Virus record (IMG/VR): IMGVR_UViG_3300021091_004015
Span: 38,673 to 102,672 of that record
Length of the DNA stretch: 64,000 bases
Strand: one strand, 5' to 3'
Source: a virus
The notes beneath the pieces were generated by a model. That model had not been told where the DNA came from and did not search any database. It saw nothing but the letters and a program-made list of their open reading frames with translations. The translations under genes and the position numbers were made by a program. Positions 2,789 through 12,315 of this stretch are shown here, piece after piece (the first letter of the stretch is position 1; every line of letters begins with the position of its first letter).

Positions 2789-3874
2789 ATGGAAAGAAAA
2801 TTAGCAAGTGTTAGAGTTATCGGGGATATCCAAAGAATCCCTGATGCTGATATGATTGAATTGGCCATCGTTGATGGTTGGAAAGTTGTTGTTGCTAAGA
2901 ATGTTGGTCATAAGGTAGGTGATAAAGTTGTTTACTGTGAAATTGATTCATTCTTACCAATCAGAGACGAGTTTGAATTCTTAAGAAAGAGTTCACACAA
3001 AAAGATGGGTGACCAAGAAGGTTTCCGTTTAAAAACTATTAAACTTCGTGGTCAAGTATCACAAGGTTTAATTTTACCTTTATCTGTTTTAAAAACTACT
3101 GATATTCCTATGATGACAACATCAAAACAAGAATGGGGTATTCAGTATGAAATGTTTGCAGAAGATGGTTTTCCTATGGTTGGAATTGGTGATGATGTTA
3201 CTGAAATATTAGGTATTGTTAAATACGAACCACCAATCCCTGCAGAACTTACAGGAAAAGTAAAAGGATTGTTTCCATCTTTCTTACGTAAAACCGATGA
3301 AGAGAGAGTCCAAAACTTGGCTAAAGAATACCAAGGATACAGATTCACCTCCGCTCATAAATTCTACGTAACTGAAAAGTTGGACGGTTCTTCAGCAACA
3401 TTTTACTTTAAAGATGGTGTATTTGGAGTGTGTTCTCGTAATTTAGAATTAACTGAAAGTGAAGGAAATACTTTTTGGAAAGTTGCTCGCGAATTAAAGT
3501 TAGAGGAATTATTAGGTGAATTAGATAACAATATCTGTTTGCAAGGTGAGTTAATTGGGGAAGGTATTCAAGGAAATCCGTACAAAATTAAAGGTCAAAC
3601 AGTTCGATTCTTTAATGGTTTTAATATAGACACTCAAGAGAATATTCCATTTTTAGAGTTTGTTGAGTTAGTTCAAAAAATGAAATTAAAAACGGTTCCA
3701 ATATTAGACTTTGAATTTAATTTACCTGACACGATTGATGATATGTTAGAATATGCCAACCAAAAGTCCGAATTAAATTCTAACTTTGATAGAGAAGGTG
3801 TGGTTGTTCGTTCTTACGATAGAAGAATTAGCTTTAAAGCAATTAGTAATAAATTTTTATTAAACGAAAAATAA
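2789..3874 (+). CDS. RNA ligase, DRB0094 (Rnl5)-like
   Basis: A 361-aa ATP-dependent RNA ligase. The first 120 or so residues look like the N-terminal OB-type module of the Deinococcus DRB0094 family (WKVVVAKNVGHKVGDKVVY and GLILP). The nucleotidyltransferase core follows: motif I EKLDGSS with the AMP-accepting Lys197, LQGELIGEGIQGN (motif III region), REGVVVRS (motif IV) and SFKAISNKF (motif V, catalytic lysine). The family seals 3'-OH/5'-phosphate nicks in RNA. It is last in the 1291-3874 operon and adjoins a second, unrelated RNA ligase, which suggests RNA repair such as restoring tRNAs cleaved by host defence nucleases. No end-healing kinase/phosphatase is visible in the window. Confidence 0.88.
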   Translation: MERKLASVRVIGDIQRIPDADMIELAIVDGWKVVVAKNVGHKVGDKVVYCEIDSFLPIRDEFEFLRKSSHKKMGDQEGFRLKTIKLRGQVSQGLILPLSVLKTTDIPMMTTSKQEWGIQYEMFAEDGFPMVGIGDDVTEILGIVKYEPPIPAELTGKVKGLFPSFLRKTDEERVQNLAKEYQGYRFTSAHKFYVTEKLDGSSATFYFKDGVFGVCSRNLELTESEGNTFWKVARELKLEELLGELDNNICLQGELIGEGIQGNPYKIKGQTVRFFNGFNIDTQENIPFLEFVELVQKMKLKTVPILDFEFNLPDTIDDMLEYANQKSELNSNFDREGVVVRSYDRRISFKAISNKFLLNEK

Positions 3875-3889: not shown

Positions 3890-4942
3890 ATGTTAGAATT
3901 GTTGAACAAATATTACGAGGATGGGTTGGTGACAAAACAAGTTCATCCAACTCTTCCTTTGTCTATATGGAACTACACCCCAAAAGTACAATATGGTCTT
4001 TTATATAATCAATACGCTTTATGGGATGAGGTAACTACTCAAGCAAGAGGTTTAGTTGTTGATGAAAATAGTAACGTTGTTGCAAGACCATTTAAAAAAT
4101 TTTTTAATATAGAAGAAAAAAGATTCACACCAACTAAAGAATTTGATGTGTATGAAAAAATGGATGGTTCTTTAGGTATATTATTTAACTATGAAGGTGA
4201 ATGGATATTTGCATCTAAAGGTTCTTTTACTTCAGACCAATCAGCCGAATTCAAAAAAATATTTGATGAAAAATATTCGACTAATTTATTAGACTTTTCT
4301 TGTACTTATTTGTTTGAAATATTATATCCTGAAAATAGAATAGTGGTTAACTATGGTGATTTAAGAGATGTGGTATTATTAGGTAAAATAGTAACTGAGT
4401 CTGGTGAAGAACTTGACGTGGAATCATATCGGAATAACTTTAATGTTGTTAAAAAATATGATGGAATAACTGATTACACTTTTTTGAAAAAAATGGTTGC
4501 CGATAACCATGAAGGTTTTATAGTAAAATTTTTTAATGGAAATAGAATAAAAGTGAAAGGAGAAGAATATCTTCGATTACATAAAATAATGACTAACATA
4601 TCAACTACTTCTGTTTGGGAAGTTTTAAGTAATCAAGGAGATATAGGTGAATTATTAAATGATGTTCCTGATGAATTTTATGATAAGATAAAATCTTATG
4701 AAAAGGATTTAAAATACCATTTTCATCAAATAAATGAGTATTGTGGTAAACTACATGATGGTTTTAGATATGGTAAGTATGGTGATGTTGACCCTGAACC
4801 AACTAAAAAAGAATTTGCAGAATTTGTTATGAGAAATGTAACAAAAACTGGTTTACGTCCTGTACTATTTGCTATGTGGGATAAAAAACCATATGACTAC
4901 ATAATATGGAGATTATTAAAACCTGAGTTTAGAAAACTATAA
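3890..4942 (+). CDS. T4 Rnl1-like RNA ligase
   Basis: 350 aa, near the length of T4 RnlA (374 aa). Motif I is YEKMDGSLGI with the predicted adenylylated Lys90 (T4 uses Lys99). LFEILYPENRIV fits motif III/IIIa, NHEGFIVKF motif IV and RIKVKGEEYLRLH motif V. The C-terminal helical part (from about residue 235) replaces the tRNA-specificity domain of T4 Rnl1. T4 Rnl1 repairs host tRNA-Lys cut by the PrrC anticodon nuclease; a similar anti-defence role here is inferred. It has its own leaderless-type promoter and a strong terminator directly behind it. Confidence 0.88.
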   Translation: MLELLNKYYEDGLVTKQVHPTLPLSIWNYTPKVQYGLLYNQYALWDEVTTQARGLVVDENSNVVARPFKKFFNIEEKRFTPTKEFDVYEKMDGSLGILFNYEGEWIFASKGSFTSDQSAEFKKIFDEKYSTNLLDFSCTYLFEILYPENRIVVNYGDLRDVVLLGKIVTESGEELDVESYRNNFNVVKKYDGITDYTFLKKMVADNHEGFIVKFFNGNRIKVKGEEYLRLHKIMTNISTTSVWEVLSNQGDIGELLNDVPDEFYDKIKSYEKDLKYHFHQINEYCGKLHDGFRYGKYGDVDPEPTKKEFAEFVMRNVTKTGLRPVLFAMWDKKPYDYIIWRLLKPEFRKL

Positions 4943-6877: not shown

Positions 6878-7036
6878 TTACTTAGTTTTTACCGTGTCTA
6901 CTTTGTTTGTAGCAGTTGAGTCAACAACTTCACTTGTTGTACTTACACTGTCAGTTGCAGGAACTTCGTTTGAAGTTGCTCCACCTCCGCATGATGCTAA
7001 CAAAACAATAAGACCACCAAAAATTAACTTTTTCAT
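6878..7036 (-). CDS. Small lipoprotein, 52 aa
   Basis: Translates as MKKLIFGGLIVLLASCGGG followed by a Thr/Ser/Val-rich tail ending in VDTVKTK. It is a textbook lipoprotein signal: KK, a hydrophobic core, then the lipobox LASC at residues 13-16 with Cys16 as the lipidated residue. The mature peptide would be only about 37 residues of flexible, acidic/Thr-rich sequence. The CGGG following the cysteine resembles the Bacteroidetes lipoprotein-export context, which can place lipoproteins on the surface. It is encoded alone between a plus-strand lysin and the RNA-gene region, with its own terminator. A superinfection-exclusion or envelope role is inference. Confidence 0.8.
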   Translation of the reverse strand: MKKLIFGGLIVLLASCGGGATSNEVPATDSVSTTSEVVDSTATNKVDTVKTK

Positions 7037-7183
7037 ATTATTTATTGTTTTAGATACAATAAATATAGGTTTAATGTTTATAAATCAATAACCAATTAAT
7101 TAATTTTTATTAAATTAATATAGAAACCAATATTTCCGAAATGACTGTTTCGGAACTTTTTTATTTTTTTTTTCTTAAAGTAC

Positions 7184-7213
7184 TTGTCAGAAAGAAAAAA
7201 ATGTTTAACTTTG
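7184..7213 (+). promoter_or_regulatory. Host-type promoter P1
   Basis: TTG at 7184-7186, 19-nt spacer, TAACTTTG at 7206-7213. First of three tandem promoters with nearly identical -7 boxes. Confidence 0.8.
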
Positions 7214-7221
7214 TAAAACAA

Positions 7222-7250
7222 ATCAGAAATAACTGATAACGTTCTTTTAA
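7222..7250 (+). promoter_or_regulatory. Leader hairpin plus boxA-like element behind P1
   Basis: Stem ATCAG (7222-7226) / CTGAT (7233-7237), then AAC and GTTCTTTTAA (7241-7250). The arrangement is repeated at 7613-7641 with a compensatory base-pair change. GTTCTTTNA matches the rRNA-leader boxA core bound by NusB/S10. Confidence 0.6.
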
Positions 7251-7283
7251 ATAATTTAGTATTAACTTTTAAAAACTCGAAAA

Positions 7284-7448
7284 ATGAGTGAAGGGACACA
7301 AGTTCTTGATAACTTGATTTTTTCCTACATTGGAAAAAACGGTGTTAGGTACCACACCCCAAATCCAAATTTAGCACAGGCACGTGCTAATTTTTACGAG
7401 ACATACACTGTCTACGTAACTAAAGTGGAAGAGGTAGAGGGAAAATGA
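7284..7448 (+). CDS. Small ORF, 54 aa, behind P1
   Basis: Begins MSEGTQVLDNLIFSYIG and ends VTKVEEVEGK. It lies 70 bases downstream of P1 and its hairpin/boxA leader, and ends before P2. No family is recognised. The ORF has a balanced composition and an in-frame ATG in a good position, but its short length means a non-coding transcript with a chance ORF is still possible. Confidence 0.5.
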   Translation: MSEGTQVLDNLIFSYIGKNGVRYHTPNPNLAQARANFYETYTVYVTKVEEVEGK

Positions 7449-7466
7449 AAAAAGTTAACAAAGTAC

Positions 7467-7496
7467 TTGACAATTAAAAAAAATTGTTTAACTTTG
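7467..7496 (+). promoter_or_regulatory. Host-type promoter P2
   Basis: TTG at 7467-7469, 19-nt spacer, TAACTTTG at 7489-7496. The predicted transcript starts with a different short hairpin (CCTTT/AAAGG, about 7502-7516) and has no clear boxA. Confidence 0.75.
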
Positions 7497-7572
7497 TAAA
7501 ACCTTTCAGATAAAGGTTGGAATTACCGTAAAACAAAGGTCTCCTAAATCTGAAAAAAAAAGTAGAGAAAAA

Positions 7573-7604
7573 TTTGGAAGTTTAAAAAATTGTTCTTAAC
7601 TTTG
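7573..7604 (+). promoter_or_regulatory. Host-type promoter P3 (large RNA)
   Basis: TTTG at 7573-7576, 20-nt spacer, TAACTTTG at 7597-7604. The only thing it can drive for the next kilobase is non-coding sequence. Confidence 0.8.
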
Positions 7605-7610
7605 TAAAAC

Positions 7611-8530
7611 AAATCGGAAACGTCCGATAACGTTCTTTGAAATTTTAGATATCCATTCAGGAGTAGATTAAAATCTTAGGATTTGAAACTGAAACTGATA
7701 AAGATATTGGGCCGTATATAGTCCATAAAATAAACCTCGAAAGGGGGATAAAGTGGAACCATCAGTGTTAGTGGTTCTGCGGTTTGGGAAACCGAACTCG
7801 AGTATACAAGTGGGATATCAGTGAGCCTGTAGTACCGAGGATAACTTCGTAGGGAAATGGAAAACTGAATAGGCAATGTGGATTGTCTGTTTGAGGTGGG
7901 AACACCAATAAGAATAACCCATAGGAATCAAGTGAGAAATGTATTTCCAAATACATGATTGCGGGTTCCAATATGAGAGGTGACTTAAAACCGAAGGGGT
8001 AATACCTGAAGGTAAGATAGAGAACGAGTGGTGTCGCTACTATCCTTACCACAGACCCACCAAGGTCTTGGTACGAAGTAATCTTAAAATATGGAGGTAG
8101 GGATATCTCACGGAGTAGTATAGTATTCTGTTTCTCAAAAGGAAATGGAGCTTAAGGTGGACCACTACTTCGATTCATCCACGACACAAAAACTTTACTA
8201 TTATTGAAGTAACATTTAAGAACATAAAGGAAAAGTGTCCATCAGGTTTTGGTGAAAGGTGACTACATAGTAATGAGCCGTTCATTGCACACAAGGACCC
8301 CAAGTCTGAGTGTAGTTTTACCAAAGACCTCTAGTCCCGCAAGGATTTATTGGGGAGGCATCCTCGAAGAGAGTTGAGTAATAAGAGAGTAACCAAAATC
8401 TCAAGGAGTGGTAAACCTAAAAGACCGTCACTGAGGAATACTTCTTAAAAGGAAGTGGATAAGAGTAGAAACAATAATGACTCTAAAGGTTCTCAATTAA
8501 CAGGTGTAATCTCAGCCTTTTTTTAGCTAT
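7611..8530 (+). ncRNA. Candidate large structured non-coding RNA (5' part)
   Basis: About 0.9 kb with no credible ORF on either strand, visibly more GC-rich than its neighbours and full of local helices. Examples are GGAACCA/TGGTTC (about 7755-7777), CGGTTT/AAACCG (about 7779-7794), GGTAAGATAG/CTATCCTTACC (about 8011-8050), AATGA/TCATT (about 8272-8286) and GGAGG/CCTC (about 8354-8365). It follows P3 and an rRNA-like boxA leader, and no convincing terminator appears until 9535. Position (phage, next to a tRNA, about 1 kb, ornate) recalls the GOLLD/ROOL classes of large phage RNAs, but I cannot match their consensus by eye. I do not recognise group I, group II or RNase P cores. The exact 3' end is uncertain. 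Confidence 0.65.
7613..7641 (+). promoter_or_regulatory. Leader hairpin plus boxA behind P3
   Basis: Stem ATCGG (7613-7617) / CCGAT (7624-7628), then AAC and GTTCTTTGAA (7632-7641). Compared with the P1 leader, the fourth pair changes from A-T to G-C on both arms, evidence that the stem is selected. GTTCTTTGAA is the same string as the B. subtilis-type rrn boxA core. Confidence 0.65.
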
Positions 8531-8575
8531 ACATTGTTAAACGTAAAAAGGTAGTTCGTTAGTTTAAAAATGATA

Positions 8576-8582
8576 TATTTAT
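8576..8582 (+). promoter_or_regulatory. TATTTAT motif
   Basis: Four bases before the ATG of the GIY-YIG gene, so the nuclease may be expressed late and separately from the surrounding RNA. Confidence 0.45.
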
Positions 8583-8586
8583 ATAT

Positions 8587-9123
8587 ATGAAATATACAAT
8601 TTACAAAATTACAAATACGTTAAATAACAAAATTTACATAGGTAAGCACCAAACAGAAAATATTAATGATAGTTATTTTGGTTCTGGTGTTTTATTAGAG
8701 AAAGCAATAAAGAAATACGGTAAAAAATTTTTCACTAAAGAAATTTTGTTCATATTCAATACCGAGAATGAAATGGATTTAAAAGAACGAGAGATAGTTA
8801 CCGAAGAATTCATTAAAAGGAAAGATACATATAATAAATCCTTGGGGGGTGAAGGAGGTTCTAATTTCAAAGGAAAAAAACATACTAATGAAACTAAACA
8901 AAAATTATCAGATATTAGTAAAGGTAGAATTTTTTCTGAAGAAACAAGAAATAAAATTTCTGAAGGAAATAGAAAAAGAGTTCTTAGTGAAAGTACAAAA
9001 CTAAAACTTTCCGAAAAGGCGAAATTAAGATTTCAAAATGAAGAAACGAGAAAAAAACATTCTGAAATAATGAAACAGTATTATACAAAAAATATCGTGG
9101 TGGTTTCCAGCTCGGTCTCATAA
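8587..9123 (+). CDS. GIY-YIG homing endonuclease (Seg-like)
   Basis: 178 aa. The N terminus YTIYKITN...IYIGKH is the GIY-YIG motif, followed by YFGSG and a conserved Glu-rich segment. The C-terminal half is a run of NUMOD3-type DNA-binding repeats (GKKHTNETKQKLSDISKG, IFSEETRNKISEGN, LSESTKLKLSEKAK). This is the architecture of T4 Seg free-standing homing nucleases, which cut a recipient genome and spread themselves. The last ten codons and the stop run into a tRNA: the TAA at 9121-9123 lies in the tRNA anticodon loop. That suggests the element landed in or beside a tRNA and took its C terminus from it. Confidence 0.85.
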   Translation: MKYTIYKITNTLNNKIYIGKHQTENINDSYFGSGVLLEKAIKKYGKKFFTKEILFIFNTENEMDLKEREIVTEEFIKRKDTYNKSLGGEGGSNFKGKKHTNETKQKLSDISKGRIFSEETRNKISEGNRKRVLSESTKLKLSEKAKLRFQNEETRKKHSEIMKQYYTKNIVVVSSSVS

Positions 9124-9157
9124 GCCGAATACGGGGGTTCGAGTCCCTCACCCGCTA
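9101..9157 (+). tRNA. tRNA-Met(CAU), 3' part only
   Basis: Clear anticodon arm TCGGT-CTCATAA-GCCGA (9112-9128, anticodon CAT at 9119-9121). T arm GGGGG-TTCGAGT-CCCTC (9133-9149). 3' acceptor strand ACCCGCT (9150-9156) with discriminator A9157 and no encoded CCA. TTTCCAG before it fits the 3' side of a D arm. The matching 5' acceptor strand (AGCGGGT) and 5' D-stem (CTGG) are not directly upstream, where the GIY-YIG gene lies, and I could not find them elsewhere in the region. It is either a tRNA interrupted in the D arm, a remnant, or a tRNA-like part of a larger RNA. Confidence 0.7.
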
Positions 9158-9534
9158 CTAAGTGACTCCAAACAAATGATAGGTCGGTAATTAACGATAT
9201 CCCGTGAAGTTATGAGTATAAACTAACCTTCAAAATTCTCGTAAAGGTTTTTGGTGATTGTTCTGTAGTTGATAACGACCAATTTTAATCCTTAAAAATT
9301 AATAAAAAATGAATTCTACCTTGAGGTGTCAATCCAAAGACTGAAGAAGTTTGAGAAAAAAATTGGTAAGGGACCTCTTTTTAGATGTGGGTACTATGAT
9401 AACCACAGTGTTTAGGTCTTAAAACGGAAAACACATAAAACAAATAGTCGTGAATACTAGTCACCACCCAACGTCACAGGGTTCTGTAGTTGTCTCACTA
9501 ACAACTCGGTAGGTTTAGATTCCTAGGACAAACA
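9158..9534 (+). ncRNA. Non-coding stretch between tRNA part and terminator
   Basis: About 380 bases without an ORF. It contains TTGGT...ACCAA (about 9251-9282), GTGG/CCAC (about 9386-9404) and a hairpin GTTGT-CTCACTA-ACAAC (about 9488-9504) with a seven-base loop like an anticodon arm. A 12-mer GTTCTGTAGTTG occurs twice (about 9259 and 9481). It probably belongs to the same transcript as 7611-8530, split by the homing gene, and ends at the 9535 terminator. No known RNA family is recognised. Confidence 0.5.
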
Positions 9535-9579
9535 AGAGGGAAGAACTAACGTAATGTTAAATTCTTCCCTCTTTTTTTT
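9535..9579 (+). terminator. Strong rho-independent terminator of RNA region
   Basis: An 11-bp stem AGAGGGAAGAA (9535-9545) / TTCTTCCCTCT (9562-9572), extended by an inner TAAC/GTTA helix, followed by eight Ts. Confidence 0.9.
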
Positions 9580-9653
9580 ATTTTATATTAATTCATAAGG
9601 TAGACTTGCTCATTCAAAACATTATTGTGACAACTTTTAAATCTTAGTTTTTG

Positions 9654-9660
9654 TATTTAT
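9654..9660 (+). promoter_or_regulatory. TATTTAT motif
   Basis: Four bases before the ATG of the T9SS cargo gene at 9665. Confidence 0.45.
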
Positions 9661-9664
9661 TATT

Positions 9665-11878
9665 ATGAGAAATATTTTAGCACTTTTAACCTACCTAATT
9701 AGTTTTGTCGGTTTCGGACAATACTGTCCATATTTAGGTCCTGACCAATTATTACCTTGCGGGTCCAACTCAACAACACTTACCGCGGACTTAACCCAAT
9801 GTGGAGTTGGGGGTATTAATCCAAATCAAACAACAAATTATAATGTAACAAATATACCTTACGTTGCTCAAGTAAATAACGGTACTAATTTAACAATGAC
9901 CGATGATTCCCAACAGGGTCCGTTTAATATAGGTTTTAATTTTTGTTTTTTTGGTACGACGTATACTCAATTTTGGATAGGGTCTAACGGATGGATATCT
10001 TTTTCGCCAAACCAACCAACAACATTTACTTCTCAATCAATACCAACAACTAATGGCTTAGTACCAAAAAATTGTATAATGGGTCCTTGGCAAGATTGGC
10101 ACCCTGGAATTGGTGGTCAAATAAAATACCAAGTTCAAGGAGTTGCACCTTGTCGTAAATTAATTGTTAGTTGGGTTAATATGCCAATGTATTCATGTAC
10201 TTCTAATCTTGGTACGTTTCACATTATAATTTATGAAACAACTAATATCATAGAAAATCACATTCAAAGTAAACCTGCATGTCTACAATGGCAAAATGGA
10301 ACTTCTGTTGAGGGTATCCATAATTTAGCAGGTACAATTGGGATAACAGTACCAGGAAGAAACTCAACCGCTTGGGTTGCACAAAATGATTCTTGGAGAT
10401 GGACACCTTCAGGACCTGTAGTGACTCCGACATTAACTTGGTATCAGGTTGGTAATCCTATACCAATAGGGACGGGTCCATCAATAACGGTTAACCCACC
10501 TGCCGCGGGAGCGAGTTACACCTGTCATTTTGTATATCCGACATGTAATGCAGGATGGGTAACATGTAATGGTTCACTTGGTTTAGGTCCTGATACTGTA
10601 TTAGTTGTTCCTGGTCCACCTAATTTACCTTTACCAACCATAATATCTAATGAACCAACTTGTAACGGGTATTGTGATGGTAGTCTTATAATAACTCCGA
10701 ATGGAGGTAATGGAGCTCAAACAATTTCATGGAATGGACCCCAATCTGGATTCAATCCAAACAACCTATGTTCAGGGAATTATGTTTTTACTTTAACAGA
10801 TGCTTTAGGGTGTACAATAACAAGTAACGTTACATTAATGGACCCTCCACCACTAATTATAAACCCTATTGTTGGTGAGGATACTATATGTATTAATTCT
10901 ATTAGTGATTTTTATAACACAACAAATTTAATTACGGGTTTAAATTATGTTTGGTCAACAACCAACGGAATTATTAATAACGGACAAGGAACAAATCAGA
11001 TTACTGTTGACGTTAATGGTACCCAATCAGGTTTTTACAATAACATGATAACTGTATACGGTATTGACGGAAACGGATGTCAGTCTCAAACAGAACTAAT
11101 CGATATAACTATTTTTAATCTTACACCTTTTATAAATCCTGTCGGTCCATTCTGTTCTTATGACGAATTTGTTACTTTAGAATCATCACCTATTGGTGGT
11201 TATTATACAGGAAATGGTGTTATAAATAATGATTTTTTTCCCATAAATGCGGTTGGTAATAATCTTATAACGTATACTTACACACAAAGTGGATGTTTGT
11301 TTACAACAACCGAGACAATTATTGTTTACCCACAACCGATAATTGAAACCTTAACACCGTCAAACCCATTTTTTGAAGTTTGTATGGGAGATTCGGTTAA
11401 CATCAATTTTGAATTGACATCAAATCCTCAAGGAATTAATCAATGGTCATTTATTGATAGTATTTATAATACCCAAGCATACAATCAAACTTTTAGTAGT
11501 GAAGGAACTTATATAATTTCAGTTACCACAACAACAAACGGATGTATTTCTAACCCAGAACAAACTACAGTTATTATTGACGAATGCCCTGAAGAGTTGA
11601 TATATATACCAAACTCATTCACACCTGATGGAGATGAACATAACAATATATGGAAACCTGTATTTACATCAGGACTTGACCCATATGATTTTAGAATGGA
11701 AATCTATAATAGATGGGGAGAATTAATATGGGTTAGTGAAAACCCTTTAGTTGGGTGGGACGGTACTTTTAATGGTAACTACTGTCAAGACGGTGTCTAC
11801 TTATGGAAGTTAGAATTTGGTATACCCGAAAATGACGGAAGAAAAAAAATGTTTGGACATTTAACAACTTTTAGATAA
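9665..11878 (+). CDS. Secreted protein with SprB repeat and T9SS type B sorting domain
   Basis: 737 aa. Residues 1-19 form a Sec signal peptide (ILALLTYLISFVGFGQ). A beta-sandwich domain follows (FNIGFNFCFFGTTYTQFWIGSNGW, about 75-100, through about 240) of the kind seen at the start of Bacteroidetes surface proteins. Residues about 325-395 are a SprB repeat (TCNGYCDGS, NLCSGNYVFTLTDALGCT). Two or more Ig/PKD-like beta domains follow. Residues about 647-737 are the gliding-motility-associated C-terminal (CHU_C, type B) sorting domain: IPNSFTPDGDEHNNIWKP, FRMEIYNRWGELIW, GWDGTFNG, DGVYLWKLEF. Such proteins leave the host cell through the type IX secretion system found only in Bacteroidetes. 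It is monocistronic, with a terminator behind it. A role in altering the host surface or adhesion is inference. Confidence 0.88.
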   Translation: MRNILALLTYLISFVGFGQYCPYLGPDQLLPCGSNSTTLTADLTQCGVGGINPNQTTNYNVTNIPYVAQVNNGTNLTMTDDSQQGPFNIGFNFCFFGTTYTQFWIGSNGWISFSPNQPTTFTSQSIPTTNGLVPKNCIMGPWQDWHPGIGGQIKYQVQGVAPCRKLIVSWVNMPMYSCTSNLGTFHIIIYETTNIIENHIQSKPACLQWQNGTSVEGIHNLAGTIGITVPGRNSTAWVAQNDSWRWTPSGPVVTPTLTWYQVGNPIPIGTGPSITVNPPAAGASYTCHFVYPTCNAGWVTCNGSLGLGPDTVLVVPGPPNLPLPTIISNEPTCNGYCDGSLIITPNGGNGAQTISWNGPQSGFNPNNLCSGNYVFTLTDALGCTITSNVTLMDPPPLIINPIVGEDTICINSISDFYNTTNLITGLNYVWSTTNGIINNGQGTNQITVDVNGTQSGFYNNMITVYGIDGNGCQSQTELIDITIFNLTPFINPVGPFCSYDEFVTLESSPIGGYYTGNGVINNDFFPINAVGNNLITYTYTQSGCLFTTTETIIVYPQPIIETLTPSNPFFEVCMGDSVNINFELTSNPQGINQWSFIDSIYNTQAYNQTFSSEGTYIISVTTTTNGCISNPEQTTVIIDECPEELIYIPNSFTPDGDEHNNIWKPVFTSGLDPYDFRMEIYNRWGELIWVSENPLVGWDGTFNGNYCQDGVYLWKLEFGIPENDGRKKMFGHLTTFR

Positions 11879-11917: not shown

Positions 11918-12315
11918 TGGTGGAGGTATGCGGAGTCGAACCGCGTCCTGCTCACATTACCTACTAAGGACTACACGCTTAGGTCAACATTTGAGCTAAT
12001 GTTCCGAAATTTCACAATTCCCTTATTTTTAAAGTGGTTCGGTTTACTGAGAACTAATCCTCCACTTGTTCCTTTTCGGGTAGAAACCACACCTTTGTAA
12101 AGACTTCTGTTCCTGGGTTATATGTCCACCGACCCGAAGGTTTCGCTTAATCTGATTAAGCTACCGCCACTTCCTCAGTACGAACAAGTCCTACTGCAGA
12201 AAGTTTGTTGATAACGTTGCCGTTTATCGATTTTGAACCATTTTAACAAGGTTAGATTCATCCTTGACGTGCCCCGAGTAACTAACTATGACAGTCAATT
12301 TCCAAGGTTACCCCC
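11918..12315 (-). ncRNA. ssrA: tmRNA (transfer-messenger RNA)
   Basis: 398 nt. The 5' end GGGGGTA pairs with the 3' TACCTCC to give a 7-bp acceptor stem containing the alanine-identity G3-U70 wobble. The 3' end has discriminator A and an encoded CCA. The T arm is GCGG-TTCGACT-CCGC. The tag frame ends GTG GCG GTA GCT TAA, the stop at 12156-12158 lying in the perfect hairpin GCTTAAT-CAG-ATTAAGC as in helix 5 of known tmRNAs. Starting from a GGC resume codon at 12221-12219 the tag has 21 codons, beginning G-NVINKLSAVG and ending RTEEVAVA. That is about twice the usual length and does not end in ALAA. The resume codon is inferred from Bacteroidetes tags, which usually begin with Gly. tmRNA with SmpB rescues stalled ribosomes and marks the product for proteolysis; no SmpB gene is seen here. 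Confidence 0.9.

Follow-up and report, generated by a model that had tools for sequence, protein, structure and literature searches.

The locus analyzed here lies in a stretch of viral DNA of 64,000 nucleotides (the window), which was taken from a virus record of 102,672 bases. It belongs to a T4-like phage, as indicated by terminase, portal, and head protein matches of T4 type. On the plus strand it consists of a promoter-like element, a hairpin, and a boxA-like sequence, followed by a GOLLD RNA, a homing endonuclease gene, the remnant of a tRNA-Met gene, and a non-coding region (the tail) that closes with a putative intrinsic terminator. According to Infernal, GOLLD occurs only once in the whole record. 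A CHU_C protein (type IX secretion domain) is encoded just downstream of the GOLLD locus, which together with the promoter style points to a Bacteroidota host. Two different RNA ligase genes are located upstream of GOLLD (2789–3874 and 3890–4942; PF09414 and PF09511), whereby a link to RNA repair is possible. Furthermore, the phage encodes a tmRNA on the minus strand (11918–12315; 81.7 bits with Rfam) that was missed by ARAGORN in the window. Among 73 GOLLD loci, 9 have a tmRNA downstream of GOLLD and in opposite orientation according to ARAGORN, and Rfam also found tmRNAs in the loci L028, L089, and L092.

GOLLD RNA and its leader

The Infernal search yielded a match to the complete GOLLD model RF02032 (positions 1–416 of 416) at 8111–8518 on the plus strand, whereby the score of 314.4 bits compares to a gathering cut-off of 150 bits. 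Thus, this stretch is a member of the family and represents the GOLLD 3' domain. The region 7640–8518 also folds more stably than shuffled sequences (z -3.48; single sequence, 20 shuffles). A large structured non-coding RNA resembling GOLLD, as suspected in the original prediction, is therefore present. ROOL, OLE, and HEARO are likewise large structured RNAs from bacteria or phages (PMC12286853, available text), whereas the Infernal check proposed for them gave no match in 7000–9700 at E ≤5. That the whole region constitutes an entirely new class of ornate RNA, as its architecture and a tail without usable Rfam match might suggest, is highly improbable in view of the full-length RF02032 match far above the cut-off; the idea is refuted for 7641–8518 and survives for the tail only.

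In order to define a set of GOLLD loci, viral contigs were scanned for an exact motif, which yielded 72 loci and, together with the window copy, a total of 73. The window region 7611–8110 was matched in 72 of these 73 loci (blastn, E ≤0.01; the window copy counted), and the 14 best blastn matches listed span about 500 nt. Locus L072 is cut off inside GOLLD and cannot contain this upstream part. Since nearly all loci match the region, the roughly 500 bases ahead of the Rfam model are the conserved GOLLD 5' domain, assigned to 7641–8110 on the plus strand. The all-pairs tree-aware covariation test revealed nine significant pairs for the 3' domain, all of them within the RNAalifold structure (35 rows), and five for the 5' domain, of which four lie within the RNAalifold structure (37 rows) and all five show at least 80% standard pairs. 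Both domains served as a positive control for the same test on the tail. With about 470 nt (5') and 408 nt (3'), i.e., about 880 nt for the whole GOLLD, the predicted domain sizes fit those of the published env-38 GOLLD RNA, which comprises residues 1–420 and 421–833, respectively, and forms a homo-14-mer cage (PMC12286853, available text). GOLLD often occurs near tRNA islands, and env-38 GOLLD is located downstream of a Met-tRNA (PMC12286853, as far as its text was available). Among the loci of our set, a tRNA-Met upstream of GOLLD is found in 14 of 57, at 950–1500 nt before the GOLLD 3' end (e.g., L002 and L064). The 5' domain of the GOLLD family is structured and less conserved, and a linker of variable sequence may contain a tRNA in some members. 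In the window, the alignment to RF02032 has a low-confidence stretch at about 8172–8217, and the tRNA is located 3' of GOLLD and outside the linker. Partial matches to the RNA, with about 69% identity, were obtained in two uncultured phages that have sizes of 635 and 642 kb.

About 900 bases without genes, with many helices and with raised G+C content, had been predicted for this region. Counting ORFs of at least 40 aa, the plus strand of 7641–8586 carries a single ORF of 42 aa, and on the minus strand three ORFs of 66, 94, and 49 aa fall within GOLLD. The G+C content amounts to 0.38–0.43 over GOLLD, compared to 0.20–0.32 over 7000–7624 and 0.35–0.37 over the tail; since some nearby genes reach 0.40–0.45, this rise is only local.

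Ahead of GOLLD, the plus strand carries, within 7597–7640 and in this order, TAACTTTG (7597–7604), a leader hairpin (7613–7628), and GTTCTTTGA (7632–7640). TAACTTTG is promoter-like and follows the consensus TAnnTTTG, a promoter type of Bacteroidota. The hairpin was detected by the consensus scan and shows, by eye, paired changes in many, though not all, relatives. Among 64 testable loci (33 distinct leader strings), 63 have GTTCTTTGA in front of GOLLD, compared to 16 of 1289 random windows taken from these loci; in 48 of the 64, TAnnTTTG is located 20–60 nt upstream of GTTCTTTGA. Thus, promoter-like element, hairpin, and boxA-like sequence, all three expected from the original prediction, are in place, and an rRNA-type leader is nearly universal in this set of GOLLD loci. 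A second leader copy with 88% identity is located at 7205–7252 in front of a 54-aa ORF (at 7284), for which no PHROGs match was obtained; the hairpin stems of the two copies differ, by eye, by one paired change.

For comparison, 20 16S leaders were collected from the family to which a Flavobacterium genome belongs, and the 18 with at least 250 nt upstream were used. GTTC[AT]T[AT][AG]A, a looser pattern without a background rate, is present in 16 of the 18, and in 15 of the 18 TTTGCA is found up to 90 nt before it. The leader of the window thus shares with the Bacteroidota rRNA operon leader a TAnnTTTG promoter followed by a boxA of GTTC[A/T]TTGA type. It differs in that it precedes a phage non-coding RNA and in that the 16S leaders mostly carry GTTCATT, the predominant host variant; the exact GTTCTTTGA occurs in one of the 18, and in none of 60 genomes was it found before 16S with a gap of 61–91 nt. 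We read GTTCTTTGA as a candidate boxA of the rRNA antitermination system with its Nus factors.

A homing endonuclease in the tRNA-Met gene

Downstream of GOLLD, a gene at 8587–9123 (plus strand) encodes a GIY-YIG/NUMOD3 homing endonuclease (PF19835, PF07460, phrog_314), whereby the PF19835 match of 25 bits lies exactly at the cut-off. Its stop codon falls inside the anticodon loop of a tRNA-Met remnant, which extends from the D-loop to the 3' end (9100–9159, plus strand; 27.9 bits) and has no 5' acceptor strand. The Rfam tRNA match at 9099–9157 stays just below the cut-off of 29 bits. ARAGORN found no tRNA at the remnant with bacterial settings and drew a poor one with the relaxed mitochondrial setting. 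A complete cloverleaf, for which both acceptor strands are required, is absent from this site, and the tRNA is intact in relatives. In L072, GOLLD, an intact tRNA-Met, and the tail follow each other in that order without a nuclease gene; the window follows this locus as far as 8537, and the agreement resumes at the D-loop of the tRNA (about 9100). Comparison with the insertion-free loci L072, L079, L081, and L086 therefore delimits an inserted block on the plus strand at 8538–9099 (borders approximate), which contains the homing endonuclease and replaces the 5' part of the tRNA-Met. The same insertion is shared by L009, L030, L039, and L042, which do not differ from the window in the stretches that were compared.

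The nuclease gene is thus an insertion in the tRNA-Met gene 3' of GOLLD. It had been proposed that the nuclease splits one RNA. This did not hold: what was hit is the tRNA gene, which has GOLLD on one side and a separate module of 420 bases on the other. An intron or a split RNA around the nuclease was rejected, because insertion-free sites have a tRNA at the break and no intron matched; Rfam gave no match to a group I intron core, nor to the other intron models that had been suggested for checking, in 7000–9700 at E ≤5. The enzyme resembles the SegD/SegE-like GIY-YIG endonucleases of T-even phages, with which it shares phrog_314, PF19835, and blastn matches to phage seg genes. It differs from them by its location in a tRNA gene beside GOLLD without a match to intron RNA. 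The tail regions of L043 and L026/L037 are nearly identical (93–94%), whereas their tRNA-Met genes differ, as would be expected for a tRNA that is exchanged as a cassette.

A GOLLD-linked 3' module

The region 9160–9579 on the plus strand contains no ORF of at least 40 aa over its 420 bases, and the window sequence 9158–9580 shows 86% identity to L072. As had been expected, GIY-YIG gene, 3' part of a tRNA-Met, further non-coding bases, and a terminator thus follow each other. A junction pattern, consisting of the tRNA 3' end and AGTGACTC, retrieved 33 viral loci. A tail pattern that uses neither tRNA nor GOLLD retrieved 57, of which 25 were new (L090–L114). Twelve of these 25 match tail profiles with E values of 1e-34 or better, and all twelve have GOLLD. 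Tail profiles and GOLLD were both without a match in the remaining 13, which were judged to be chance matches. Overall, the tail was found in 47 loci that form 13 groups of similar tails (window copy included), whereby L076 and L077 were counted on the junction pattern and weak matches to the tail core model R1 (see below) only. GOLLD is located directly upstream of the tail and on the same strand in 46 of the 47 loci, and in the remaining one (L089) the contig is cut off with only 114 nt upstream. In the opposite direction, the tail was detected in 20 of 63 GOLLD motif-scan loci with 600 nt downstream, a count for which the profiles would miss tails diverged like that of L076, and was undetected in the other 43, of which four have a tRNA. 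GOLLD therefore does not need the tail.

The spacing between GOLLD and tail falls into three types. It amounts to 82–92 nt in 29 loci, where a tRNA has its place; this class was assigned by spacing, with ARAGORN run on some of the loci and no tRNA called in L043. It is 638 nt in the five loci of the window type, and 17–22 nt without a tRNA in the 12 loci of the L092/L094 clade. These observations bear on the question whether the tail represents a small RNA in its own right, which would share transcript and terminator with GOLLD, be freed by tRNA processing, and not touch the cage. That the tail is separable from GOLLD, and that 29 of 47 tail loci have the spacing for an excisable tRNA, would agree with such an RNA. 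We consider it rather unlikely, since no tail was found away from GOLLD and since visual inspection of the short gap in the L092/L094 clade revealed no other known site for cutting. The 12 tRNA-less loci contain only two distinct tail sequences, which makes the case for a joined molecule weaker.

In order to analyze the tail structure, 15 tails were aligned with MAFFT without reference to structure (alignment A2). On A2, a structure with 27 pairs in five helices is paired in 82.6% of the cells, and 17 of the 27 pairs are changed on both sides. Its covariation score of 0.393 exceeds the shuffle mean of 0.182 and was reached in 0 of 500 shuffles; slid versions gave at most 0.190. The comparison with the slid versions is biased toward this structure, since it had been picked by eye from the very sequences on which it was counted. 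Further pair types, one of the five measures, were not above shuffles (138 of 500). The core of the tail at 9382–9531 (plus strand) was used for the model R1, to which it scores 123.9 bits, a value that is not independent because the window tail core was included in building R1. All helices of this core are given on the plus strand, and arm-swap folding tests were run on clade representatives. Helix A (9386–9407, UGUGG/CCACA) is paired in 100% of cells and appears in the MFE and centroid folds, and four of its five pairs never vary. Helix B (9408–9434, GUGUUU/AAACAC) gave 188 of 20000 in the arm-swap test and helix D (9510–9525, UAGG/CCUA) 653 of 20000. Helix C (9488–9506), which has a near-invariant loop of UCACUAA type, gave 5 of 20000 and in the pair-count test 0 of 20000, the latter with a small bias since the best of two loop lengths is picked per sequence. 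Helix E was not significant (2072 of 20000). For a possible pseudoknot that joins the loop of helix D to a stretch further downstream, the value was 243 of 20000, whereby the best duplex in L001 and L006 differs from the proposed one. An alternative alignment (A3) was set aside for A2, because its counts lean on the model. The four weakly matching sequences that it contains (from L061, L014, L063, and a second site in L086) were judged to be chance and dropped from the all-pairs test. R1 finds L076 and L077, which were outside the training set, at the tail position with weak E values of 0.003 and 0.009.

The unit is closed by a predicted intrinsic terminator at 9536–9579 (plus strand) with a stem formed by 9536–9545 and 9562–9571 and eight T, which is present in the MFE and centroid folds. 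The consensus scan, whose rule allows short loops only, did not list it. All 16 tails cut for alignment end in a stem and a T-run. By eye, GGCUA/UAGCC could pair across the terminator stem in L024, L026, L028, and L053, and GGUUA/UAACC in L011, so that a pseudoknot could form at these tail 3' ends.

The homologue covariation check that had been suggested for this RNA was positive for both GOLLD domains and mixed for the tail, with the A2 counts in favor and the all-pairs tree-aware test against. The latter detected no significant tail pair on three MAFFT alignments (16, 15, and 21 rows) nor on a second 16-row MAFFT alignment, and on a CM-fitted alignment it detected two significant pairs, both off-structure. 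Moreover, the window tail (9160–9579) alone folds with z -1.08, and 11 of 100 shuffles fold as well. Together with the stem and T-run at the end of these 16 tails, the weak folding and the negative all-pairs test would suit a fast-evolving 3' trailer with termination and protection from 3' exonucleases as its sole function. Such a trailer is improbable, as the loops are invariant while the stems change and mostly stay paired, and as alignments between clades show 65–69% identity over more than 500 nt. Overall, we take the tail helices, above all helix C, as well supported, and the complete tail structure is not established.

Searches against known RNAs gave no usable match for 9160–9579 in Rfam 15 (E ≤5); a patAB match with 23 bits (cut-off 92) sits on the terminator and was rejected. 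Rfam likewise returned nothing at E ≤0.5 for the tails of L028, L053, L089, and L092, and two tail queries had no blastn match among 50,697 phage records (E ≤0.1). The tail was also dismissed as a relative of GOLLD itself, since R1 matches the window only at 9382–9531 (E ≤1). The tail pattern has 83 matches in bacterial genomes, none of them with GOLLD, and the sole weak profile match among them (L174, E 0.009) was judged to be chance. R1 had no match in 395 and RF02032 none in 198 Bacteroidota genomes, whereby no positive control matched, so that absence is not established. In the available text of the literature mentioning GOLLD, a scope outside which the original and the mycobacterial GOLLD papers lie, no such 3' module was found. 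By these searches, 9160–9579 is a putative new structured module in no Rfam family tested, and it is for this part that the earlier idea of a new class stands, whereas it fell for 7641–8518 with the RF02032 match.

The transcription unit and its proposed product

The locus encodes an RNA of a known family and shows two additional features, an rRNA-type leader and a GOLLD-linked 3' module. With GOLLD as otherwise known it shares the full-length 3' domain, the conserved 5' domain upstream, the phage location, and the tRNA-Met neighbour, whereas it differs by the boxA-type leader and by the 420-nt structured module, which is present neither in the Rfam model nor in the available text of PMC12286853.

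As the original prediction had it, the arrangement reads as a single transcription unit. We infer that the locus probably gives rise to one transcript that comprises leader, GOLLD, an optional tRNA, a 3' module acting with GOLLD, and the terminator. In this model, a T4-like phage of a Bacteroidota host would transcribe about 7610–9579 as one unit, whereby the boxA leader would load host rRNA antitermination factors, so that the polymerase reads through the long untranslated RNA. The product would be the GOLLD RNA with its 5' and 3' domains, which is expected to form an RNA cage. In most tail-bearing relatives, the tRNA-Met would be excised by RNase P and RNase Z, which would release GOLLD at its 3' end and the module at its 5' end. 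In the tRNA-less clade, GOLLD and the module would remain joined. In the phage of the window, tRNA processing should be lost, because the GIY-YIG homing endonuclease is inserted in the tRNA gene. The module may work with GOLLD either as a third domain of the cage or as a partner RNA for it. The former is possible, short of being probable: the tail would then constitute a third structural domain of a GOLLD subfamily with a cage subunit of about 1.3–1.45 kb, and a tRNA could be placed between cage and new domain.

A conserved module found only beside GOLLD together with a conserved leader offers direct handles on the function of GOLLD. The natural loci with and without tRNA or tail may be used to find out which parts assemble, what the cage contains, and whether tRNA cutting shapes the ends. 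Finally, judging from its boxA-type leader, GOLLD seems to be handled by the phage in the manner of an rRNA, i.e., as an abundant and untranslated RNA that is shielded from early termination.
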